From contig JAXHLS010000002.1 of the NCBI GenBank assembly GCA_034522055.1, positions 2,623,549-2,687,548 on the forward strand: a stretch of DNA of 64,000 nucleotides. Reading direction: 5' to 3'. This DNA comes from Gammaproteobacteria bacterium (GTDB taxonomy: Bacteria; Pseudomonadota; Gammaproteobacteria; JAABTG01). Shown here one piece after another: positions 20,989 to 46,236 of this stretch. Below the pieces are notes generated by a model, which saw only the letters and a list, made by a program, of their open reading frames with translations, was not told the DNA's origin and did no database searches. The position numbers and the translations under genes are program-made. Each line of letters starts with the position of its first letter. The stretch's first letter is position 1.

Positions 20989-21834
20989 TCAGGCAGCGCT
21001 GCGAGCGCGCCGCGGTGATGGCTTGCGCTCGGTGTGGAAGACATCGAAGAAGAGCTTTTCATCGAGCTGGGTGAGTTCGTGGCGGCTGGCATGGGCGAGG
21101 ATTTCGGCGGCCATATTGGTCAGCACACGGTAGTTGCCCATAGCGTGATCGGCCAGCGCCTGTGCCAGCTGTTCGCTGAACAGACCGGGGTTGCCGGCGC
21201 TTGTGCAAAGATGCGCCAGGCAGGCGAGGAGATCGTCGCGTGAGGCGTGTTCAAGCGCCAGGCGGGCCCGGATGCGCGAGCCGAGCGGGAGCAGATCGTC
21301 ACGCCGGAGCAGGTCGGTCAGGCGTTGATCGCCGGCGAGGACCACGCTCAGCAAGGTGCGGGAGTCGAACTGGGACGAGGCGAGCAAGCGCAACTCATTC
21401 AGTACCACAGGCGCGATCTCCTGGGCTTCATCGATCAGCAGCACGGGGCGCATGAGTGAGGCGTCGAGAGTCGCCAGCCAGCGGGTGCGCAGCCCCTTGA
21501 AGCCCATCCAGCGATTGTGCGGCTTGAGATCGACGCCGAACAGGTCTCCCAGCTCGCGGTAGAAGTCCGCGAGGTTGGCACTCGGATGGGTCAACGCGGC
21601 GATGGTCAGGTCGGGCAGGCGCCCGAGGCGGGCGGCGAGGATGCGCAATGCGACGCTCTTGCCGGTGCCGGGCGCGCCGGTAATGAGGGCAAAGCCGCCT
21701 TCGCGGACATGGGTGTGTTCGATACGCCAGGCGAAGTCCTCCAGCGCAGGCGTTGCCATCAATGCCTCGGTGGGCAGTTCCGGCGAGAATGGATTCCACT
21801 TGAGGCCGTAGAGTGCGAGCAGGGATTTGTTCAT
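20989..21834 (-). CDS. TniB/ExeA-type AAA+ ATPase of transposon E1 (copy 1)
   Basis: 281 aa. Walker A GAPGTGKS at residues 53-60, Walker B VLLIDEAQ at 131-138 and an arginine-rich sensor region after GSRIRARLALEHASRDDLLACL. It belongs to the ExeA/TniB/TnsC-like group of transposition regulators, which bind ATP and target DNA and recruit the transposase. Its ATG overlaps the transposase stop (ATGA), showing translational coupling. It appears identical or nearly identical to the copy 2 protein. Confidence 0.9.
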   Translation of the reverse strand: MNKSLLALYGLKWNPFSPELPTEALMATPALEDFAWRIEHTHVREGGFALITGAPGTGKSVALRILAARLGRLPDLTIAALTHPSANLADFYRELGDLFGVDLKPHNRWMGFKGLRTRWLATLDASLMRPVLLIDEAQEIAPVVLNELRLLASSQFDSRTLLSVVLAGDQRLTDLLRRDDLLPLGSRIRARLALEHASRDDLLACLAHLCTSAGNPGLFSEQLAQALADHAMGNYRVLTNMAAEILAHASRHELTQLDEKLFFDVFHTERKPSPRRARSAA

Positions 21835-23309
21835 GGGTCAGTATCCTCGGGATCGAAGGGCAGATAGGCCGGCGGTATGCCGGTGGCGGCATACTCGGCC
21901 AGGAGTTGGTCAAGCAACGGCGCCATACCGGCGCACGTGTTAGCGTTAACCGGCAGGGCATCGACCGACGTGCTGTCATCCACCGGCGCGAGGGCCCGTC
22001 GTCCATGCTCGGCATTACGCTGCTTGTCGAGTGGATAGAGCACGGCGACGGGTTGTTCGGTGTGGGGATCGAGTAGATCAATACTCGCAAGATCCCAGCG
22101 TGCGTAGCGCAGCTTTAGCCGGTGGAGGTGGCGGAACCGGGAGGGCACCTCGAAGCGGGTGCCCAGTACGGTGCAGGTGCCATCGGATCGACGCTGGACA
22201 CGCGTGGTCTGTGCGCGGAAGCTGCGGCGTAGCATCTCGGCATCGGGGCACTCGCGGGCAACGTCGGGGCCCTGCCGATAGCGCTCAATGGGCGCGCAGC
22301 CGAGCTCGTGGTGGCGGCGACGCTGATACTCGCCCTCGACCCAGGCGAGTGTTGCGCGGTTGAGACTCTCCAGTGTCAGCTGCTCGACGCCCTCGAGCAT
22401 GGCGAGCAGGCGACCCTCAACGACCGACCACCAGTTCTCCTGCTTGGCATTCTGGTAGGCCGAGTACGGTAATGTCGTCTCATGCACGATACCCAGGCGC
22501 GCCAGGCCCTCGGTGACTTCGGTCGCGGTCTCGGCACTGCCGTTGTCGGTCAGCAGGGCACGGGGCAGGCCGCGCTTCTGCAGCGCCTGCGACAGGCCGT
22601 GCACGAAGCGTTCGGCGTCCTCGGTGAGGTACCACTGGGCGTGACAACAGATCCTTGAGCAGTCATCGAGAATGCCGAGCATCTGTACCGTCTGCCAGCG
22701 CCCGCGCGCATCGACGACGCGGCGCGAGCCGACGTGGAAGTCGGCGTGCCATAACGCATTGACGTGGGCGAGTTCATAGCTGCGCACCTCGCGCGTGGCC
22801 AGGTGGCGCTCGGCGGCTTCAGCACCGGGGGTATCGCGCCGCACGCGCCCGGTGCGCTTGCGCATGCCGTTCGCCTGTAGATACCGCCGAACGGTGGCGT
22901 ACGAGGGCATCGCGCCAAGAGACGGATCCTTGGCAGCCAGAACCGCAAGGTTATCGACATGCAGCTGCACGCTCCAGCCCGAATGCGCTTGGTAGAGCGC
23001 ATGCAGCTCGGTGCGCAGCAGGTCACTCAGGCGGCGGTGACGTCCCGCATCGGCGCGTCGGCGTGAACGCAGCGCACGGACTGGGTCAGCGCCGGCACGA
23101 AGCGCCAGGTAGTACCAGCGCTCTATGGTGGAGAACCCGAAGCGTACCGCCTCGCCAGTGACCGGATGACGCCAGGTCCTGGCGGCCAGCGCCGTAATGG
23201 CTGTGTGCAGCTCACCGCTCTCTGGCGGTGCCGCCAATAGCGAACCGATCACGGCGAAGCGCAGCCGTGCCCAGCGTTCGTGCACGCTCAATCTGTTGTC
23301 GTCGCCCAT
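21831..23309 (-). CDS. DDE transposase (rve/TniA-like) of transposon E1 (copy 1)
   Basis: 492 aa. An N-terminal winged-HTH DNA-binding region (residues about 10-165) precedes an RNase-H-fold catalytic domain with Asp190 (WHADFHVG), Asp255 (LLTDNGS) and Glu291 (QENWW), i.e. a D-D(35)-E arrangement. A beta-barrel-like C-terminal region follows. The length and the partner ATPase fit TniA/TnsB/MuA-type enzymes that leave short 5-6 bp target duplications, as seen here. Only a few residues differ from copy 2 (for example near the C-terminus, DDSTSVDALPVNANT versus NDDAPVDALPASANT). Confidence 0.92.
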   Translation of the reverse strand: MGDDNRLSVHERWARLRFAVIGSLLAAPPESGELHTAITALAARTWRHPVTGEAVRFGFSTIERWYYLALRAGADPVRALRSRRRADAGRHRRLSDLLRTELHALYQAHSGWSVQLHVDNLAVLAAKDPSLGAMPSYATVRRYLQANGMRKRTGRVRRDTPGAEAAERHLATREVRSYELAHVNALWHADFHVGSRRVVDARGRWQTVQMLGILDDCSRICCHAQWYLTEDAERFVHGLSQALQKRGLPRALLTDNGSAETATEVTEGLARLGIVHETTLPYSAYQNAKQENWWSVVEGRLLAMLEGVEQLTLESLNRATLAWVEGEYQRRRHHELGCAPIERYRQGPDVARECPDAEMLRRSFRAQTTRVQRRSDGTCTVLGTRFEVPSRFRHLHRLKLRYARWDLASIDLLDPHTEQPVAVLYPLDKQRNAEHGRRALAPVDDSTSVDALPVNANTCAGMAPLLDQLLAEYAATGIPPAYLPFDPEDTDP

Positions 23310-26326: not shown

Positions 26327-27805
26327 ATGGGCGACGACAACAGATTGAGCGCGCACGAACGCTGGGCACGGCTGCGCTTCGCCGTGATCGGTTCGCTATT
26401 GGCGGCACCGCCAGAGAGCGGTGAGCTGCACACAGCCATTACGGCGCTGGCCGCCAGGACCTGGCGTCATCCGGTCACTGGCGAGGCGGTACGCTTCGGG
26501 TTCTCCACCATAGAGCGCTGGTACTACCTGGCGCTTCGTGCCGGCGCTGACCCAGTCCGTGCGCTGCGTTCACGCCGACGCGCCGATGCGGGACGTCACC
26601 GCCGCCTGAGTGACCTGCTGCGCACCGAGCTGCATGCGCTCTACCAAGCGCATTCGGGCTGGAGCGTGCAGCTGCATGTCGATAACCTTGCAGTTCTGGC
26701 TGCCAAGGATCCGTCTCTTGGCGCGATGCCCTCGTATGCCACCGTGCGGCGGTATCTACAGGCGAACGGCATGCGCAAGCGCACCGGGCGCGTGCGGCGC
26801 GATACCCCCGGTGCTGAAGCCGCCGAGCGCCACCTGGCCACGCGCGAGGTGCGCAGCTATGAACTCGCCCACGTCAATGCGTTATGGCACGCCGACTTCC
26901 ACGTCGGCTCGCGCCGCGTCGTCGATGCGCGCGGGCGCTGGCAGACGGTACAGATGCTCGGCATTCTCGATGACTGCTCAAGGATCTGTTGTCACGCCCA
27001 GTGGTACCTCACCGAGGACGCCGAGCGCTTCGTGCACGGCCTGTCGCAGGCGCTGCAGAAGCGCGGCCTGCCCCGTGCCCTGCTGACCGACAACGGCAGT
27101 GCCGAGACCGCGACCGAGGTCACCGAGGGCCTGGCGCGCCTGGGTATCGTGCATGAGACGACATTACCGTACTCGGCCTACCAGAATGCCAAGCAGGAGA
27201 ACTGGTGGTCGGTCGTTGAGGGTCGCCTGCTCGCCATGCTCGAGGGTGTCGAGCAGCTGACACTGGAGAGTCTCAACCGCGCAACACTCGCCTGGGTCGA
27301 GGGCGAGTATCAGCATCGCCGCCACCACGAGCTCGGCTGCGCGCCCATTGAGCGCTATCGGCAGGGCCCTGACGTTGCCCGCGAGTGCCCCGATGCCGAG
27401 ATGCTGCGCCGCAGCTTCCGCGCACAGACCACGCGTGTCCAGCGTCGCTCCGATGGCACCTGCACCGTACTGGGCACCCGCTTCGAGGTGCCCTCCCGGT
27501 TCCGTCACCTCCACCGGTTGCAGCTGCGCTACGCACGCTGGGATCTTGCGAGTATTGATCTGCTCGATCCCCACACCGAACAGCCCGTCGCCGTGCTCTA
27601 TCCACTCGACAAGCAGCGCAATGCCGAGCGCGGACGGCGTGCACTAGCACCGGTGAACGACGACGCGCCCGTCGATGCCCTGCCGGCCAGCGCCAACACG
27701 CGCGCCGGCATGGCCCCGTTACTCGACAAACTCATGGCCGAGTATGCCGCCACCGGCATACCGCCGGCCTATCTGCCCTTTGATCCCGAGGATACTGACC
27801 CATGA
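26327..27805 (+). CDS. DDE transposase (rve/TniA-like) of transposon E1 (copy 2)
   Basis: 492 aa with the catalytic triad Asp190, Asp255 and Glu291, an N-terminal DNA-binding region and a beta-barrel-like C-terminal region, as in copy 1. Its stop overlaps the ATPase start (ATGA). The C-terminal tail (TGIPPAYLPFDPEDTDP) is a good candidate for the ATPase-contact peptide by analogy with TnsB/MuB-type systems; that is inference. Confidence 0.92.
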   Translation: MGDDNRLSAHERWARLRFAVIGSLLAAPPESGELHTAITALAARTWRHPVTGEAVRFGFSTIERWYYLALRAGADPVRALRSRRRADAGRHRRLSDLLRTELHALYQAHSGWSVQLHVDNLAVLAAKDPSLGAMPSYATVRRYLQANGMRKRTGRVRRDTPGAEAAERHLATREVRSYELAHVNALWHADFHVGSRRVVDARGRWQTVQMLGILDDCSRICCHAQWYLTEDAERFVHGLSQALQKRGLPRALLTDNGSAETATEVTEGLARLGIVHETTLPYSAYQNAKQENWWSVVEGRLLAMLEGVEQLTLESLNRATLAWVEGEYQHRRHHELGCAPIERYRQGPDVARECPDAEMLRRSFRAQTTRVQRRSDGTCTVLGTRFEVPSRFRHLHRLQLRYARWDLASIDLLDPHTEQPVAVLYPLDKQRNAERGRRALAPVNDDAPVDALPASANTRAGMAPLLDKLMAEYAATGIPPAYLPFDPEDTDP

Positions 27806-35915: not shown

Positions 35916-36989
35916 GTGTGGCGGGTAGACTTTAGTTCTTGCCTGGAAGACGACGGTCAGGCCGCGGAGCGCTCTGCCGACGCAAATCCGTTCCTGTCGC
36001 CGCCGTGGTTCCGGCTGCTGGCAGGGACGACCATCCCGGAGCCGGCACAGGCGGTCTGGTACCGCGCCCGGGCGGGTGCCGGCCAATCCGTGACGCTGCC
36101 CCTCGTGCGACATGCCCGGCCATACCCGTGGGCACCCCGCAGGATCACCTCTCTCAGCAACTACTACACCCCTATATATGCCCCGCTGGCAGCGGCAACG
36201 GCTGTCGACGGCGCCGTCGCCGCCATTGCCCGGCATATCGCGTCGGAGCGCCCCGCCTGGGATATCGTCGACCTCGAGCCGCTGGATAAGCAGGGGAGTG
36301 GTTTCCAGGTGCTTCGTGGCGGTCTGGAGGAGGCGGGGTTCTGGGTGCGTCCCTATTTTCGCTTCGGCAACTGGTATCTAAAGCTGGCGGGGCGCGGCTA
36401 TGAGGAATACCGGGACGGGCTGCCGGGGCGGCTGAAGAGCACCCTGTCGCGTAAAGGCCGGGCCCTGGAGCGGAGTGCCCGTCATGAGTTCCAGGTGGCG
36501 ACCTCCCTCGATGACCTGCCATGGGCGCTACCGGCCTACGAGGCGGTGTATCGGGTGAGCTGGAAGCGCCCCGAGCCGCTGGCGTCGTTTATGCCGGGGC
36601 TCATCGAGCTGGCGGCCGCCGAGGGCTGGTTGCGGCTTGGTGTGCTGTATATCGAAGGGCGGCCGGCCGCCGCCCAGATCTGGCTTGTGGCGGGCGGCGT
36701 GGCGTCTATTTACAAACTCGCCTATGATCCCGCGTTTAAGCAATTCTCGCCCGGGACTTTGCTCACGGCCCACCTGTTGCGGCGGGCCATCGACACGGAC
36801 GGTGTGGATGAAGTGGATTACCTGGTGGGGGACGACAGCTACAAGCAGGATTGGATGTCGGGGCGCCGGGAGCGCTGGGGCCTCTTCGCCCTGAATCGCG
36901 CGACCTGGCGGGGCAGGGCCCTGATGCTGAAAGAGGGGCTTGCGGTGCGCTTGCGGCACCGCAGGGCGGATAATTTTGGGGAAGATTGA
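35916..36989 (+). CDS. FemAB/GNAT (BioF2-like) acyltransferase
   Basis: About 357 aa if started at GTG 35916. The open frame extends upstream to 35736, but that part overlaps the divergent GT4 gene and lacks recognisable features. Late blocks such as LGVLYIEGRPAAAQIWLVAG, VASIYKLAYDPAFKQFSPGT and YLVGDDSYKQDWMSGRRERW match the Acetyltransf_6/FemAB-like GNAT fold found in exosortase A gene clusters. It is followed immediately by an acyl carrier protein (TGATG overlap), so it may move an aminoacyl or acyl group from that carrier to a glycan or lipid. Confidence 0.78.
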   Translation: MWRVDFSSCLEDDGQAAERSADANPFLSPPWFRLLAGTTIPEPAQAVWYRARAGAGQSVTLPLVRHARPYPWAPRRITSLSNYYTPIYAPLAAATAVDGAVAAIARHIASERPAWDIVDLEPLDKQGSGFQVLRGGLEEAGFWVRPYFRFGNWYLKLAGRGYEEYRDGLPGRLKSTLSRKGRALERSARHEFQVATSLDDLPWALPAYEAVYRVSWKRPEPLASFMPGLIELAAAEGWLRLGVLYIEGRPAAAQIWLVAGGVASIYKLAYDPAFKQFSPGTLLTAHLLRRAIDTDGVDEVDYLVGDDSYKQDWMSGRRERWGLFALNRATWRGRALMLKEGLAVRLRHRRADNFGED

Positions 36990-37252
36990 TGATGAGCGTC
37001 GTTGACGAGGTGAAAGTCGTCCTGGGGGAGGCCCTGCAGATCGAGGACCGGGTGGATTCCATGTCCGCTGGCACCGGTCTTCTTGGTAGTGTGCCGGAGT
37101 TTGACTCCATGGCCGTGGTGACGGTGATCGCCGCCCTGGAGGAGCGCTTCGATTTCGAGGTTGCCGACGACGAGATCGATGCGGCCTCTTTCGAGACCGT
37201 GGGCAGCCTGGCCGCGTTCGTGCAGCAGAAGCTCGATAATCCCCCTCGGTGA
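36989..37252 (+). CDS. Acyl carrier protein
   Basis: About 87 aa. The phosphopantetheine attachment site is the Ser of GSVPEFDSMAVVTVIAALEE (Asp-Ser-Met), followed by RFDFEVADDEIDAASFETVG, as in ACP/PCP domains. ATG 36989 or 36992 overlaps or abuts the stop of the previous gene, with GGGGAAG as ribosome-binding site. Exosortase A loci regularly encode such a carrier next to the ligase, decarboxylase and hydrolases seen in this window. It should be loaded by the acyl-CoA ligase at 44626-46236. Confidence 0.92.
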   Translation: MMSVVDEVKVVLGEALQIEDRVDSMSAGTGLLGSVPEFDSMAVVTVIAALEERFDFEVADDEIDAASFETVGSLAAFVQQKLDNPPR

Positions 37253-39105
37253 GCCCCGTGCCGGCACCGTTCGGCGGCTACCTCCCCAGTCCTTCCGGCA
37301 AGCAGTTCTTCCTTTACTTTCCTCCCGCCCCGGCGGTTGCCCGGGGGCATCATATCGTTCACGTTCCCGCCTTTGCAGATGAGATGAACAAGGCGCGGCG
37401 GACGGTGGCGGTGCAGGCAAGGGCCTTCGCCGCGGCCGGCATCGGTGTACTGATCCCCGACCTCAAGGGCTGCGGAGACAGTAGCGGGGACTTCTCGGCG
37501 GCCGACTGGCAGGGCTGGCAGGAGGATATCCACCGGGCCGTCGAGTGGGTGGAGCGGGAGTGCAGGCCCTCGCGGCTGGGGTTATGGGGATTGCGCCTCG
37601 GTGGTCTGTTGGCCGTGGACTATCTCCGTAGCCGGCCCGCGGCGGGCGTGGACGACCTGTTGCTGTGGCAGCCGGTCCTGCGGGGCCACTCGGCGCTGAC
37701 ACAGTTCCTGCGCTTGCGGGTGGTCATGACGGCGTTCTCGGAGGGTGCGACGGAGACGGCGGCGTCGATGCGGGCCCGCCTGGCTGCCGGCGAGACCCTG
37801 GAGGTGGCTGGCTATGGCCTCAATCCTGCCTTGGCCGGGGCCATGGACGCCGCCGGGTTGGACCCGTCCACGCCACCGCCGGTGCGCCGGGTCATGTGGC
37901 TGGAGCTGGCGGGGAGTGGTCGGGAGACGGGGGCCGGCAGCACGCCGCCTGGACGTAGCGCCGAGGTCATAGCCGGATGGCGGGCAGCCGCGGTCGCGGT
38001 GGATGCGGAGGTGGTCAGGGACGAGCCGTTCTGGGCCACCCAGGAGATTGCCACGGCTGTGAACCTGGTTCAGGCCACTATGAGCCTCTGCGCCGCCGAC
38101 GCGCCTGGCCATGCCGGCGGCGATGGCGGGGTGACCGGGCTGGCCCCGGGTTCGGTGCCGGCGCCTACACCTGCCCCGTCAGCGTCCCGTAGCCCCCGGG
38201 AGGAGAAGGCCGGGCTCCGGGGGGCCGATGCCACAGGCCCCGAGACGCCCGCCACCGAAGAGGCCCCCCTCTTTTTTCCCTGTGAAGGCGACGCCCTGTG
38301 CGGCATCCTCCACCGGCCGGCCCGGCCCCTTGGCCGCGGGGTGCTGGTGGTGGTGGGCGGACCCCAGTATCGGGTGGGCAGCCACCGCCAGTTCGTGTTG
38401 CTGGCCCGTACCCTGGCGGCTGCGGGAGTGCCGGTGCTGCGTTTCGACTATCGGGGCATGGGTGACAGCGAGGGTGGCCCGCGGGGCTTCGAGCATATCG
38501 AGCAGGACATCCGGGCCGCGGTCGATGGCTTCTTCCATGCCGTCGACGGGCTGGAGCAGGTGGCCATCTGGGGGTTGTGTGACGCCGCCACCGCGGGCGC
38601 CTTCTACGGGCCCGCGGATGCGCGGGTAACGGGCATGGTCCTGGTGAATCCGTGGGTCCGTAGTGCGGGCGGCGAGGCCCGGGCCTATTTGCGTCACTAC
38701 TATCTCAGACGGCTGGCAAGCCGGGATTTCTGGGCCGGTCTTTTCAAGGGACGCGTGCGGTTATGGCGTTCCATGGTGGCCCTTGGCCGGCAGGTAAAGA
38801 CGGCGCGGGGCGCGGGTGACGATGTTACGGGAGGACAACCGGACGGTGAGGAGGACGCGTTGGCCGTGCGCATGGCCTCGAGTCTGGAGCGCTTCGACGG
38901 CAGGATTCTGCTGATCATGAGCGGCAACGACCTCACCGCCGCCGAGTTTCAGGACACCGTTACGCGGGGCCGGCGCTGGCAGGCCTTGCTCACGGACGCC
39001 CGTTTCCAGCGCCACGATCTGCCCCCGGCGGACCATACATTTTCCCGTCGGGAATGGGCCGATCAAGTCTCACAATGGACGCTGGAGTGGATGCAGGAGG
39101 CCTGA
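37249..39105 (+). CDS. Fused exosortase A-associated hydrolase 2 - hydrolase 1
   Basis: A 618-aa protein with two alpha/beta-hydrolase domains. Domain 1 (about 5-275) has HVPAFADEMNKARRTVAVQA and DLKGCGDSSGDF, typical of exosortase A system hydrolase 2. Domain 2 (about 340-615) has FPCEGDALCGILHRPARP, VVVGGPQYRVGSHRQFVLLA and FDYRGMGDSEG, typical of hydrolase 1. A Pro/Ala-rich linker (about 280-335) separates them. The expected nucleophile positions read GLRLG (residues 114-118, no Ser) and GLCDA (Cys at 444). GTG start overlaps the ACP stop (GTGA). In most loci the two are separate genes. Confidence 0.87.
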   Translation: MSPVPAPFGGYLPSPSGKQFFLYFPPAPAVARGHHIVHVPAFADEMNKARRTVAVQARAFAAAGIGVLIPDLKGCGDSSGDFSAADWQGWQEDIHRAVEWVERECRPSRLGLWGLRLGGLLAVDYLRSRPAAGVDDLLLWQPVLRGHSALTQFLRLRVVMTAFSEGATETAASMRARLAAGETLEVAGYGLNPALAGAMDAAGLDPSTPPPVRRVMWLELAGSGRETGAGSTPPGRSAEVIAGWRAAAVAVDAEVVRDEPFWATQEIATAVNLVQATMSLCAADAPGHAGGDGGVTGLAPGSVPAPTPAPSASRSPREEKAGLRGADATGPETPATEEAPLFFPCEGDALCGILHRPARPLGRGVLVVVGGPQYRVGSHRQFVLLARTLAAAGVPVLRFDYRGMGDSEGGPRGFEHIEQDIRAAVDGFFHAVDGLEQVAIWGLCDAATAGAFYGPADARVTGMVLVNPWVRSAGGEARAYLRHYYLRRLASRDFWAGLFKGRVRLWRSMVALGRQVKTARGAGDDVTGGQPDGEEDALAVRMASSLERFDGRILLIMSGNDLTAAEFQDTVTRGRRWQALLTDARFQRHDLPPADHTFSRREWADQVSQWTLEWMQEA

Positions 39106-40343
39106 AGCCGATACTGCTGATCGCCTACCATTTCCCTCCGGTGGCGGGTAGCAGTGGTGTCCAGCGCACCCTGAATTTCGCGCGTTACCTGCCGGAATTC
39201 GGTTGGCGGCCCGCCGTGCTGACGGTGCACCCCCGGGCCTATCCGCTGACTGCCGTGGAGACCCTCGGGCAAGTGCCGGCCGGGACCAGGGTGGTTCGGG
39301 GCTTTGCCATGGATACCGCCCGCCACCTTGCCGTGTTCGGCCGTTATCCCCGTTGGCTGGCCCTGCCCGACCGCTGGTGGACCTGGTTGATCGGGGCCTT
39401 GCCGGCAGGCCTCGAGATGGTGCGACGTGATCGGCCGCGGCTGCTGTGGGCCACCTACCCCGTGCCGTCGGCCCTGCTGGTGGGCCTCGCGCTGCACCGG
39501 TTGACGGGGATCCCCCTGGTGGCAGATCTCCGGGACAGCATGGTGGACGACTCCTTTCCCTACAACCCGGCCCAGCGGCGGGCCCACCGCTGGATAGAGG
39601 AACGAGTGGTGCGCGGGGCATGTCGCATAACATTCACCGCGCCGGGCACCCGGGAACTCTATGCGCGCCGCTATCCGGCACAACCTGCCAACCGCTGGGG
39701 TGTCATCCCCAACGGATACGACGAGCAGGACTTCATGCGGGTGGAAACGGAGATCCTCGCTCCGCCACGTGACGGAACGCGTATCACCCTCGTGCATGCG
39801 GGCCTGGTGGATCCGGTGGATCGGGACCCGGACGCACTGCTGCAGGCCCTGTCGACCATGAAGGGGGAACGGTCCCCGGGGGTGGAAAGGCTGGAGATCA
39901 GGTTCCGGGGCGCGGATGGGAACGACGCGTTGCGCCGTCGGGTGTCGGAGTATGGCCTGGACGATATGGTGACCCTGGCGCCGCCCTTGCCCTATGACGC
40001 CGCATTGGCGGAGATGATGGCTGTCGATGCCCTGTTGTTGCTCCAGGGTACCACCTGCAATCACCAGATTCCGGCGAAGCTCTATGAGTACGCCCGCACG
40101 GGCCGGCCGGTTCTGGCCCTGACGGACCCCGCCGGGGATACCGCGGAGGAACTGCAGAGAATGGGATTCGGAACATGCGCGCCCCTGGATGATCCGTCTG
40201 CCATCGCCGCCACCCTGAAAGGTTTCTTTGCGCGACTGGAGCAGGGCAGCGAGTCGGGCTGTGAGCTGCACGTTGCCCGTCAACATACCCGCCGCGAGCG
40301 CACCCGGGAATTTGCGGCGATGTTGAACGAGGTCGATGGCTGA
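39054..40343 (+). CDS. Glycosyltransferase family 4
   Basis: A 429-aa GT-B enzyme beginning PILLIAYHFPPVAGSSGVQR after a short leader, then IPNGYDEQDF and QIPAKLYEYARTGRPVLALT as donor-site block. The frame is open from ATG 39054, inside the end of the hydrolase gene; ATG 39075 is an equally possible start and still overlaps the upstream gene, so co-translation is likely. It is followed by a 709-bp array of hairpin repeats. Confidence 0.87.
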   Translation: MGRSSLTMDAGVDAGGLKPILLIAYHFPPVAGSSGVQRTLNFARYLPEFGWRPAVLTVHPRAYPLTAVETLGQVPAGTRVVRGFAMDTARHLAVFGRYPRWLALPDRWWTWLIGALPAGLEMVRRDRPRLLWATYPVPSALLVGLALHRLTGIPLVADLRDSMVDDSFPYNPAQRRAHRWIEERVVRGACRITFTAPGTRELYARRYPAQPANRWGVIPNGYDEQDFMRVETEILAPPRDGTRITLVHAGLVDPVDRDPDALLQALSTMKGERSPGVERLEIRFRGADGNDALRRRVSEYGLDDMVTLAPPLPYDAALAEMMAVDALLLLQGTTCNHQIPAKLYEYARTGRPVLALTDPAGDTAEELQRMGFGTCAPLDDPSAIAATLKGFFARLEQGSESGCELHVARQHTRRERTREFAAMLNEVDG

Positions 40344-40349
40344 ACCGGA

Positions 40350-41035
40350 AAACGCCCCGCCCCGGCCGCCCCCACCGCCATCGCAGAAAAGGTCCCTTCT
40401 CCCGGGGGAGAAGGACAGGATGAGGGGATGGTGGGCCGGGGCAGAGCTGCAATTCCCCGCCTCGGCCGCCCCCACCGCCATCGCAGAAAAGGTCCCTTCT
40501 CCCTGGGGAGAAGGACAGGATGAGGGGATAGTGGGCCGGGGCAGAGCCGCCAGCCCGGCATCACCTTCCCTCACCCCGGCCCTCTCCCAAAGGGAGAGGG
40601 GGAGTAGTCTGAAAGAGGTCCTTAATGGCACGGCCCCGATGACTTTGCCGCCGTCGCAGATAAGGTCCCTTCTCCCCTGGGGAGAAGGACAGGATGAGGG
40701 GATACCGGGCCGGGGCAGAGCCACCATCCTGGCTTCGCATCCCCTCACCCCGGCCCTCTCCCCCGGGGAGAGGGGGAGTAATCTGCCGGCCCTCTCCCCC
40801 GGGGAGAGGGGGAGTAGTCTGAAAGAGGTCCTTAATGGCACGGCCCAGATGACTTTGCGGCCATCGCAGAAAAAATCCCTTCTCCCCGGGGAGAAGGACA
40901 GGATGAGGGGATGGTGGGCCGGGGCAGAGCCACCATCCTGGCTTCGCATCCCCTCACCCCGGCCCTCTCCCCCGGGGAGAGGGGGAGTAATCTGCCGGCC
41001 CTCTCCCCCGGGGAGAGGGGGAGTAATCTGAAGAT
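40350..41035. repeat. Array of hairpin repeats with a 210-bp tandem duplication
   Basis: No gene lies in 40344-41052. Two hairpin types alternate: CCCTTCTCCC-GGGGGAGAAGG followed by ACAGGATGAGGGGA, and CCCTCACCCCGGCCCTCTCC-CGGGGAGAGGGGGAGTA. The block starting GGAGTAGTCTGAAAGAGGTC at 40601 is repeated at 40811, a tandem unit of 210 bp with a few substitutions. At least four copies of the GAAGG-type hairpin and five of the GAGGG-type are present. Confidence 0.85.
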
Positions 41036-43375: not shown

Positions 43376-44617
43376 CTAAACAAGAACCTCCACCGGGGCC
43401 GCATGACCGAGGAAGCCGTGGGGGCTGGCGGTGAAGCCGTAAGCCCCGGACTGGAATACGGCGATGAGGTCGCCGGGCCCCGCCACGGGGAGTTCCATCT
43501 TGTCGGCGAGGATGTCGAGGGGCGTACACAGGGGGCCCACCACGTTCGCGGTCTCGGCAGGCCCGGCGGTCATGCGGTTGGCCACGGCCACGGGATAGTT
43601 CTTGCGTATCACCTGGCCGAAGTTACCCGAGGCGGCCAGGTGATGGTGGAGGCCGCCGTTGGTGATCAGGAAGGCCTGCCCTTTGGAGAGTTTGCGGTCG
43701 ACGACCTTTGCTACGTAGACGCCCGCCTCGCCCACCAGGTAGCGCCCCAGCTCGATGACTATCTCGGCCCGGGGCATGGCCTCCTTGACGGGGGGCAGCC
43801 GCTCGGCCAGGTTCTCGCCGATGGGGGCCAGGTCCAGGGGCTGCTCGCCGGCGAAATAGGGGATGCCGAAGCCGCCGCCGATGTTGAGCAGGCGCACCGG
43901 GCCGGGGGCGTCCGCGGCGAGGCGCAACGCCAGGTCCAGGGTCTGGTTCTGGGCCTCGATGATGGACTCGGGTTTGAGGTTCTGGGAGCCACTGTAGATA
44001 TGAAAACCCTGGAAATCGAGGTCCAGATCACCGATGCGGCGCAGCATGGCGGGCACCCGCTCGGCATCCACGCCGAAGGCCTTGGGGCCGCCGGTCATTT
44101 TCATGCCGGAGCTTTTGAGTTCGAAGTCCGGATTGACCCGCACGGCCACCCTGGGCCTCATGCCGGCGGCGCTGCCGATGCGCGCGGCGCGTTCCATCTC
44201 GCCCTCGGATTCCAGGTTGATGGTGATGCCTGACGCGATGGCGGCGGCGAGTTCATTGTCATTCTTGCCCGGGCCGGCAAAGCTGATTACCGCCGGGTCG
44301 GTGCCTGTATCGAGGGCGACCCGCAGCTCCCCCAGGGAGGCCACGTCCAGGCCGTCCACCAGGCTCGCCATGTGTTGCACTACCGCGGGCATGGGGTTGG
44401 CCTTGATGGCGTAGTGGAAGTGGATGTCCGCGGGTAGCAGTGCCCGCAGGTCTGTGACGCGCTGGGTCAGGAGGCGCCGGTCATAGGCATAGAAGGGTGT
44501 CTGGCCCACCCGTCTGGCGAGGCGGGTGACGGGGATGCCGCCGATGAGCAGTTCGCCGTCGGCCACCGGGAATTGGGCCATGGGGGCATGCCGGGGTTTG
44601 TCGATCTTCTTATCCAT
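43376..44617 (-). CDS. PLP-dependent decarboxylase, exosortase A-associated
   Basis: 413 aa from ATG 44617. The frame is open much further upstream, but that part overlaps the ligase gene and is not conserved-looking. Fold type III (alanine racemase/diaminopimelate decarboxylase-like): PLP lysine in HYAIKANPMP (Lys72), GLDVASLGELRVAL, GFHIYSGSQ, LNIGGGFGIPY (phosphate-binding), and C-terminal GPLCTPLDILADKMELP and FQSGAYGFTASPHGFLGH. It decarboxylates an amino acid, possibly to an amine or diamine used by the neighbouring ligase/carrier system. The ligase stop is 8 bp upstream. Confidence 0.9.
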   Translation of the reverse strand: MDKKIDKPRHAPMAQFPVADGELLIGGIPVTRLARRVGQTPFYAYDRRLLTQRVTDLRALLPADIHFHYAIKANPMPAVVQHMASLVDGLDVASLGELRVALDTGTDPAVISFAGPGKNDNELAAAIASGITINLESEGEMERAARIGSAAGMRPRVAVRVNPDFELKSSGMKMTGGPKAFGVDAERVPAMLRRIGDLDLDFQGFHIYSGSQNLKPESIIEAQNQTLDLALRLAADAPGPVRLLNIGGGFGIPYFAGEQPLDLAPIGENLAERLPPVKEAMPRAEIVIELGRYLVGEAGVYVAKVVDRKLSKGQAFLITNGGLHHHLAASGNFGQVIRKNYPVAVANRMTAGPAETANVVGPLCTPLDILADKMELPVAGPGDLIAVFQSGAYGFTASPHGFLGHAAPVEVLV

Positions 44618-44625
44618 CTTTCTAG

Positions 44626-46236
44626 CTATTGCTGGCGGGCCTCGTTCCCGGGGCCAGTGGTGGGCTCGAAAACGCTCCGGTACCTTTCCGTCAGGCCTTT
44701 GCGGTCGACCTTGCCGTTGGGGTTCCGTGGCAGGGCGGTGATTACCTCCACCCTCAAGGGTACCATGAAGCCCGGCAGGTCCCGTTTGCACGTCGCCAGT
44801 AGGGTATCGACGTCCAGAGGCGTACGGGCCGGTTTGATCACCGCCAGGATCCCCTGACCCAGGGACGGGTGGGGGAGGCCGAGGGCCGCGCACTCGTCCA
44901 CCATGCCCGATCCGTAAAGCACCTCTTCCACCTCCGTGGGGCTGACCCGGTAGCCTGAGGTCTTGATCATCTCGTCGCGCCGGCCGATGAAGTAGAGGAA
45001 CCCGTCCTCGTCCTTGCGCACGGTATCGCCGGACCACACGGCGATTTCCGGGCCGGGGATCCCCTGGGGAGTGCCGGGCGACGGACGGAAGCGCTCGGCG
45101 GTACGTTCGGGATCGTTCCAGTAGCCCAGGGACACCAGGGCGCCACGGTGCACGAGTTCTCCCGGCTCCGCGGGTTCGCAAGGGGTGCCATCCTCGCGCA
45201 CCACCAGGATATCGGCATTGGGAATGGCCTTCCCCATGGAGTCCGGGCGGCGATCGATCTCCGCGGGTGGCAGATAGGTGGAGCGAAAGGCCTCGGTGAG
45301 ACCGTACATCAGGTAGGGTGTCGTGTTGGGAAGCTTATTCCTCAATGCGTCGAGGACGGAACGGGGCATGGCACCACCGGAGTTGGTGATGTAACGGAGG
45401 TGCTCCACCGCCTCATGGGGCCAATCGAGGCCCGCCAGTTGGACCCACAGGGGGGGGACGGCGGCCAGGCCCGTTATCCGTTCCCGTGCCACTGCCCGTA
45501 TGACGTCCCGGGGCAGCAGGTAGTCCATGAGCACTACACTGGCGCCCACCGCGAAGGCGGTGGAGAGCTGGCTGAAGCCATAATCGAAGCTGAACGGCAG
45601 CACCGCCAACAGCCGGTCCTCCGGGGTATTCTTCAGGTATTGGGCCACGCTGCGGGCGCCCGCCACCATGTTGCGGTGGGACAGCACCACCCCCTTGGGC
45701 CGCCCGGTACTGCCCGAGGTGTAGAGGATGGCGGCCAGATCGCTGTCGATGCGACGGTGGGTTGGCTTGCTCCCCGTTCGGGTGGCCGTTGACCACGGCA
45801 GTACTTGCACGTGACCGTAACTCGCGGGCAGTTCGTTTGCCTCGGCGGTGGCCACCAGAGTGTGCAGATCGGGGCAATCGTGGATGGCCTCCGCGAGAAG
45901 CGGGGCACGGTCCCGGGAAGTGACAAGGACCCGCGCCCCGGAATCCTTGAGGATATGTGCCACCTGGGGCGGTTTCAGTAACGGGTTGATGGGGACGAAC
46001 GCACCGCCGGCCATTGCGGTGCCGAACAGGGCGGTGACTGCCTCGAAGCATTTGGGCAGGTAGACCGCGACCCGTTCGGCCGGTTGCAGGTCCAGGGCGA
46101 TTAGTCCGCTGGCGAAGGTCTCGATATCGGCGGCGATGGTGGCGTAGTCACGAGACTCGCCCTTGAAGGCAAGGCACGGGCCATTGGCTCGGTGCTCGGC
46201 GCTTTCCTCAAGCAACTCGTGCAATAGGTCCGACAT
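44626..46236 (-). CDS. AMP-forming acyl-CoA ligase, exosortase A-associated
   Basis: A 536-aa ANL-superfamily enzyme. Signature AAILYTSGSTGRPKGVVLSH, YLMYGLTEAFRSTYL (A5-like), GDTVRKDEDGFLYFIGRRDE, MIKTSGYRVSP and C-terminal PRNPNGKVDRKGL with the catalytic Lys. Together with the decarboxylase 8 bp downstream, the acyl carrier protein and the fused hydrolase it forms the set found in exosortase A (PEP-CTERM) loci. It activates an acid (acyl or amino acid) as adenylate for the carrier or CoA. Substrate unknown. Confidence 0.92.
   Translation of the reverse strand: MSDLLHELLEESAEHRANGPCLAFKGESRDYATIAADIETFASGLIALDLQPAERVAVYLPKCFEAVTALFGTAMAGGAFVPINPLLKPPQVAHILKDSGARVLVTSRDRAPLLAEAIHDCPDLHTLVATAEANELPASYGHVQVLPWSTATRTGSKPTHRRIDSDLAAILYTSGSTGRPKGVVLSHRNMVAGARSVAQYLKNTPEDRLLAVLPFSFDYGFSQLSTAFAVGASVVLMDYLLPRDVIRAVARERITGLAAVPPLWVQLAGLDWPHEAVEHLRYITNSGGAMPRSVLDALRNKLPNTTPYLMYGLTEAFRSTYLPPAEIDRRPDSMGKAIPNADILVVREDGTPCEPAEPGELVHRGALVSLGYWNDPERTAERFRPSPGTPQGIPGPEIAVWSGDTVRKDEDGFLYFIGRRDEMIKTSGYRVSPTEVEEVLYGSGMVDECAALGLPHPSLGQGILAVIKPARTPLDVDTLLATCKRDLPGFMVPLRVEVITALPRNPNGKVDRKGLTERYRSVFEPTTGPGNEARQQ

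Follow-up and report, generated by a model that had tools for sequence, protein, structure and literature searches.

The window analysed here, a 64,000-nucleotide stretch of a Gammaproteobacteria genome, contains a tightly packed run of genes in which a GNAT-type acyltransferase and an acyl carrier protein (ACP) are followed, in third place, by a fused hydrolase and then by a family 4-like glycosyltransferase (Table 1). The first ATG of the ACP gene overlaps the GNAT stop codon by one base, and the ACP stop codon overlaps the GTG start of the fusion as GTGA; the GNAT gene itself probably begins downstream of its listed TTG. An adenylate-forming ligase and a PLP decarboxylase lie farther along. 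The TIGR03099 model spans only residues 204-601 of the listed decarboxylase frame, whose first 200 residues run into the ligase ORF; translation therefore probably begins within the frame, near 44572.

Table 1. Positions within the window of the fused hydrolase, its predicted catalytic and elbow residues, and the linked genes
Feature	Position	Strand	Remarks
GNAT-type acyltransferase, PF13480	35736..36989	+	
Acyl carrier protein, FDSM phosphopantetheine site	36989..37252	+	Directly upstream of fusion
Fused hydrolase 2-hydrolase 1 protein, 618 aa	37249..39105	+	Open frame; TIGR03101 and TIGR03100 above curated cut-offs
Half 1, TIGR03101 domain, residues 11-280; alpha/beta hydrolase fold without nucleophile or His	37279..38088	+	
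Arg116 codon, nucleophile elbow GLRLG	37594..37596	+	Arg in 117/117; aligns with catalytic Ser of solved esterases
Disordered linker core, residues 296-329	38134..38235	+	pLDDT < 50
Half 2, TIGR03100 domain, residues 338-616	38260..39096	+	
Cys444 codon, predicted nucleophile, GLCDA	38578..38580	+	Cys in 131/131
Asp561 codon, predicted acid	38929..38931	+	Asp in 128/131, 3 gaps
His596 codon, predicted general base	39034..39036	+	His in 124/131, 7 gaps; aligns with catalytic His
Glycosyltransferase family 4-like gene	39054..40343	+	Overlaps fusion 3' end; relative fused to the pair in L052
PLP decarboxylase, TIGR03099, BtrK-like	43376..45181	-	Model covers 43376-44572
Adenylate-forming ligase, TIGR03098	44626..46236	-	

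Between the glycosyltransferase and a DUF218 gene, positions 40355-41032 hold a long direct repeat array, with families of 149, 96 and 106 nt, packed with palindromes of the CCTTCTCCC..GGGGAGAAGG type. An antisense ORF of 628 aa (39063-40949), which lies opposite the glycosyltransferase and the repeat array, gave no Pfam or NCBIfam match and was rejected as a gene. The window also carries two IS481-like transposase ORFs in opposite orientation (21831-23309, minus strand, and 26327-27805, plus strand), both of 492 aa and with near-equal scores, each of which adjoins a 281-aa ORF; the one 281-aa ORF that was scanned shows a likeness, well short of the cut-off, to the XrtA-associated ATPase, which would suit an ATPase of transposition.

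The fused frame starts with GTG and contains zero internal stops. When each half was compared with NCBIfam domain models, as the initial annotation had proposed, residues 11-280 matched TIGR03101 (hydrolase 2, exosortase A system-associated) at 287.7 bits against a cut-off of 202.75, and residues 338-616 matched TIGR03100 (hydrolase 1, exosortase A system-associated) at 370.7 bits against a cut-off of 168.45; with both scores above cut-off, membership of the halves in other families was ruled out. Elsewhere in the same genome, matches to either model fall far below the cut-offs, which are exceeded at the fusion only. Hydrolase 2 and hydrolase 1 are commonly encoded by separate genes, whereas in the window they form the N-terminal and C-terminal halves, respectively, of one protein. 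The original description of two hydrolases united in a single 618-aa protein by a flexible linker is borne out by the intact ORF, the two model scores and the low pLDDT of the linker. Inspection of the fusion sequence by eye revealed no secretion signal.

GLRLG and GLCDA had been placed at the nucleophile elbows, and both motifs are read where expected, the first at residues 114-118 (with Arg116) and the second at residues 442-446 (with Cys444). In profile alignments Arg116 and Cys444 both fall on the catalytic Ser of solved serine esterases and His596 of half 2 falls on their catalytic His, so that a Ser nucleophile is absent from both halves. Across 131 distinct hydrolase 1 domains Cys444 is invariant, and Asp561 and His596 are interrupted by gaps alone (Table 1), which come from two incomplete rows (L079 and L094) and from distant rows with a shortened match. 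Arg116 is likewise invariant across 117 distinct hydrolase 2 domains, in which the place of the His is taken by Phe261-Trp262 (Phe in 110 and Trp in 111, with 6 gaps each). At three more distant loci (L009, L039 and L040), half 1 keeps GLR and half 2 keeps G[LI]C together with the Asp and the His, and among 16 distant hydrolase 1 partners (L128-L143) an Arg aligned at the elbow in 15, L143 being unaligned there. The window protein resembles its families in both halves, with Arg at the elbow and Phe-Trp in the His place of half 1, and the GLC elbow, Asp and His in half 2; the Cys-Asp-His criterion for TIGR03100 was derived from the family alignment rather than from the model documentation. The elbow residues are family-wide, in fused and split proteins alike, which rules out a peculiarity of the window protein and removes the supposition that non-serine elbows are unusual in themselves. 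An invariant Cys with Asp and His in one partner, and an invariant Arg with Phe-Trp in the other, lead us to conclude that the pair, judged by its aligned residues, is an intact Cys-Asp-His alpha/beta hydrolase joined to a conserved pseudo-hydrolase.

AlphaFold2 predicted a well-ordered two-domain body both for the window protein (mean pLDDT 88.9, pTM 0.89, residues 296-329 disordered) and for a Massilia fusion, L075 (mean pLDDT 93.8, pTM 0.92), and the high pTM for two domains of such size suggests a fixed mutual arrangement in these models. The fold matches were alpha/beta hydrolases, mostly on half 2, and comprised feruloyl and cinnamoyl esterases, a lipase, PET46, DcsB, GrgF and a dienelactone hydrolase. 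The feruloyl/cinnamoyl esterase and PETase group (7wwh, 7q4h and 8b4u) shares the fold of half 2 at Z scores of ~24 to 25, and its catalytic positions align with those of the window protein, but its nucleophile is Ser where that of half 2 is Cys. Half 2 was also matched by GrgF (Z 23.9, rmsd 2.3 over 204 residues) and DcsB (Z 24.5, rmsd 5.2 over 228 residues), both of which we take to be alpha/beta hydrolases of fungal polyketide pathways; the literature matches listed held nothing on the nucleophile of GrgF.

XrtA (exosortase A, TIGR03109) is encoded in the same genome, ~17 kb before the first base of the window, with a score of 354.4 bits (cut-off 208), and TIGR03108, also upstream of the window, is matched at 1073 bits (cut-off 816.9). 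The companions TIGR03098 (777 bits) and TIGR03099 (629.1 bits) are both above cut-off, and TIGR03101 stands beside TIGR03100, to which it is fused in the window. Taken as a whole, together with the mechanism set out below, we lean towards the explanation that the fusion is a covalently joined hydrolase 2/hydrolase 1 pair of the XrtA exopolysaccharide system. A second exosortase-like gene (G000:C6:1132940-1133707) scores 200.7 bits, just below the XrtA cut-off.

Relatives of the whole protein were sought in genome contigs, and the best 80 of 489 were kept. Both domains lie in one frame at 26 of these 80 loci, a proportion that is no frequency because the ranking favours in-frame fusions. The fused loci come from Neptunomonas, Sedimenticola, Massilia, Halieaceae, Aestuariicella, Chromatium, Dechloromonas and others, and all 8 of the 26 fusions that were scanned with NCBIfam pass both curated cut-offs. 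Evenly drawn samples were surveyed as well. Among 369 genomes of the class, 28 exceed the TIGR03100 cut-off: the pair is fused in the window's own genome and split in 26 others, and the remaining locus (L025) runs off the end of its contig. Among 398 genomes of the phylum, 27 match at 1e-45 (3 of which are also in the class sample), with 25 split and 2 fused, namely the window's own and G479, whose fusion (L144) passes the TIGR03100 cut-off and misses that of TIGR03101. The fusion is rare in evenly drawn samples. At all examined loci uncut by a contig end, a hydrolase 2-like partner adjoins hydrolase 1.

Two trees were built. The first used joined domain alignments of 104 rows, with the linker excluded, after 12 duplicate, truncated or distant loci had been left out; the second was inferred under a mixture model from the 89 rows that remained once 15 with long branches or near-identical sequences had been removed. 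Either tree requires 8 changes between the fused and the split state, with 7 of the changes forced by starred branches on the first and 5 on the second; fusion or splitting has therefore been repeated. The window's nearest rows, L042 and L062, have the same gene order as the window, but in both of them in-frame stop codons separate the two hydrolases. They are grouped with 16 fused rows on starred branches of the first tree, and the mixture-model tree has no starred set that contains the window. The fusion may have been gained in the window lineage or lost in L042 and L062. L042 and L062 are close in sequence as well as in gene order, yet they belong to MAGs labelled Sedimenticola and Acidobacteriota, a likeness that points to lateral transfer or mis-binning.

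The survey for the fusion elsewhere that the initial annotation had called for thus finds it at many loci and repeated on the trees, and the belief that fusion is unusual in itself is not supported. The same data bear on the concern that a sequencing or assembly error had joined two frames. Many relatives are split, including the two nearest rows with their in-frame stop codons, as an artefact in the window would lead one to expect; against this, one frame spans both domains, and one-frame fusions recur across several genera among the best 80 of 489 relatives, with every scanned example passing both cut-offs. An artefact is already refuted as a general explanation, and we give it a negligible chance at this locus.

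Two of the fused loci differ in construction. In Neptunomonas marina (L052:7956-10949), hydrolase 2, hydrolase 1 and a glycosyltransferase form a triple fusion in one 998-residue frame. The linker of the Chromatium fusion (L067:7992-9782) contains SLSFIPSPQSLSPLGRGAFL, which looks like a translated palindromic repeat of the CTCTCCC-GGGAGAG type, and a repeat insertion may have joined the hydrolase genes there. The recurrence of the fusion speaks for the two hydrolases working as a single unit. With moderate confidence, as part of the explanation favoured above, we propose that the fusion fixes a one-to-one pairing, which split homologues would reach by gene adjacency.

Neighbouring genes were sought with profiles built on the proteins of the window itself. 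At 73 of 78 loci the hydrolase 2 domain was preceded by an ACP-like ORF that ended no more than 400 nt before it; the other 3 of the 81 loci lacked hydrolase 2 or met a contig end and were not counted. Within flanks of up to ~8 kb, the 81 loci contain relatives of the ligase (40), the decarboxylase (40), the GNAT protein (28) and the glycosyltransferase (36).

The linked ligase and decarboxylase give an indication of what the ACP may carry. Among solved structures, the decarboxylase matches BtrK best, at 266.7 bits, followed by a diaminopimelate decarboxylase at 162.7 bits. The window enzyme and BtrK share motifs such as GG[LM]HHH and GPLCTP, where the best diaminopimelate decarboxylase aligns poorly, and of 45 TIGR03099-like rows the 44 that align in these stretches show almost no variation. 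The best solved match of the ligase is the nonribosomal peptide synthetase (NRPS) LgrA, whose FSFDGS aligns with SFDYG of the ligase. The Asp of this site, which is kept in 38 of 40 ligases, presumably contacts the amino group in adenylation domains. A BtrK-like decarboxylase together with an NRPS-like ligase that has the conserved Asp suggests a route by way of a carrier-bound amino acid, in which, as read from the sequences, an amino acid would be adenylated, placed on the ACP and decarboxylated there.

The closest parallel that we considered is the side-chain pathway of butirosin, in which the ligase BtrJ is an ATP-grasp enzyme. BtrK decarboxylates BtrI-bound glutamate to give gamma-aminobutyryl-BtrI, according to PMC7857480. 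The cluster in the window shares with this pathway a carrier protein and a BtrK-like decarboxylase; unlike in butirosin, its ligase is adenylate-forming and NRPS-like, and its setting is that of an exopolysaccharide. Decarboxylation on the carrier requires that the amino acid be loaded through its side-chain carboxyl or through one end of a symmetric amino acid. This weighs against our explanation, as alpha-decarboxylation of the BtrK type wants side-chain loading, whereas an NRPS-like ligase normally activates the alpha-carboxyl.

In the mechanism that we propose, the ligase would activate an amino acid and load it on the ACP, and the BtrK-like decarboxylase would trim the carrier-bound product. 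Cys444, activated by His596 and Asp561, would take over the acyl group from the phosphopantetheine of the ACP, forming a thioester, and pass it to a sugar, to a glycolipid or lipid-linked sugar, or to water. The Arg half would have no hydrolase chemistry of its own and may bind the carrier, the acceptor or a charged group of the cargo. That Cys444 acts in this manner on a carrier-bound aminoacyl group during exopolysaccharide modification is a reading of conserved residues and gene order that we judge somewhat probable. We slightly favour acyl transfer over plain hydrolysis, since polysaccharide is what the cluster builds and since in Neptunomonas marina the pair occurs in one frame with a glycosyltransferase. 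The aminoacyl chain is claimed for part of the loci only, because the ligase and the decarboxylase were each detected at about half of them. The initial annotation had offered a scaffold or a thiol-based enzyme acting on ACP cargo. Given the conserved Cys-Asp-His of half 2, the absence of nucleophile and His from half 1 and the frequent upstream ACP gene, this is a fair reading, in which the choice between the two falls away: the protein is probably both, one per half.

More tentatively, and by analogy with the butirosin route, the XrtA/PEP-CTERM exopolysaccharide clusters might contain an unrecognised pathway of carrier-tethered aminoacylation. An amino acid would be adenylated, loaded on a dedicated ACP and decarboxylated to an omega-amino acyl group, which a two-part cysteine acyltransferase, composed of the active Cys hydrolase and its obligate Arg pseudo-hydrolase and fused in some lineages, would move onto the polysaccharide.

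Other functions were weighed against acyl transfer by the Cys half. It may instead be an editing enzyme, a type II thioesterase that clears misloaded or stalled carrier, with sugar transfer left to the GNAT-type protein encoded upstream. The adjacency of the ACP gene and the intact Cys triad would fit this role, as would the GNAT gene in the window and the presence of the thioesterase DcsB among the fold neighbours; however, a GNAT relative is found at just 28 of the 81 loci, and we know of no editing thioesterase that needs a strictly conserved pseudo-hydrolase partner, so that we regard editing as unlikely. Adjacency does not by itself make the ACP the substrate, which tells against our own explanation. 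Nor need the cargo be an amino acid: NCBIfam names the linked ligase an acyl-CoA ligase, and N-acyl amino acid synthase genes often adjoin PEP-CTERM/exosortase genes, as stated in PMC7293339. The ACP might accordingly carry a fatty acyl group, with the pair taking part in PEP-CTERM-linked chemistry of N-acyl amino acids or lipids, but the BtrK-like decarboxylase and the match of the ligase to an amino acid-adenylating NRPS make this distinctly unlikely.

The structural neighbours invite a further alternative, in which the substrate of the Cys half would be an ester, borne by the finished polysaccharide or by a lipid-linked intermediate, that it cleaves without involvement of the ACP. Its closest solved relatives are feruloyl/cinnamoyl esterases, lipases and PETases, and the predominance of esterases and lipases among the fold neighbours, which would suit free-ester hydrolysis equally well, is a point against acyl transfer. 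In PMC3584217, a protein labelled TIGR03100 is listed as a predicted hydrolase and a quality-control role is suggested for it. We consider such an esterase very unlikely, in view of the lack of a secretion signal discernible by eye and of a gene that is tied to an ACP gene at 73 of 78 loci.

In the open-licence literature, no description of the fusion, of the Cys triad or of the link to BtrK was found among the matches listed, and none of those matches brought butirosin or BtrK together with exosortase, PEP-CTERM or exopolysaccharide; PMC1569441 makes no mention of hydrolase, ligase, acyl-CoA, acyl carrier or decarboxylase. The families themselves are already known and the fusion is a minor recurrent variant of them; what is new is the mechanistic reading of the cluster. 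The exosortase A-linked families bear the label 'hydrolase' without an assigned reaction, and the Cys triad, the partner Arg, the near-constant ACP and the BtrK-like decarboxylase together turn that label into a testable pathway. If the proposed pathway is correct, the exopolysaccharides of many environmental proteobacteria would bear amine-bearing acyl groups, which would alter the charge of these polymers and could influence how flocs and biofilms form.
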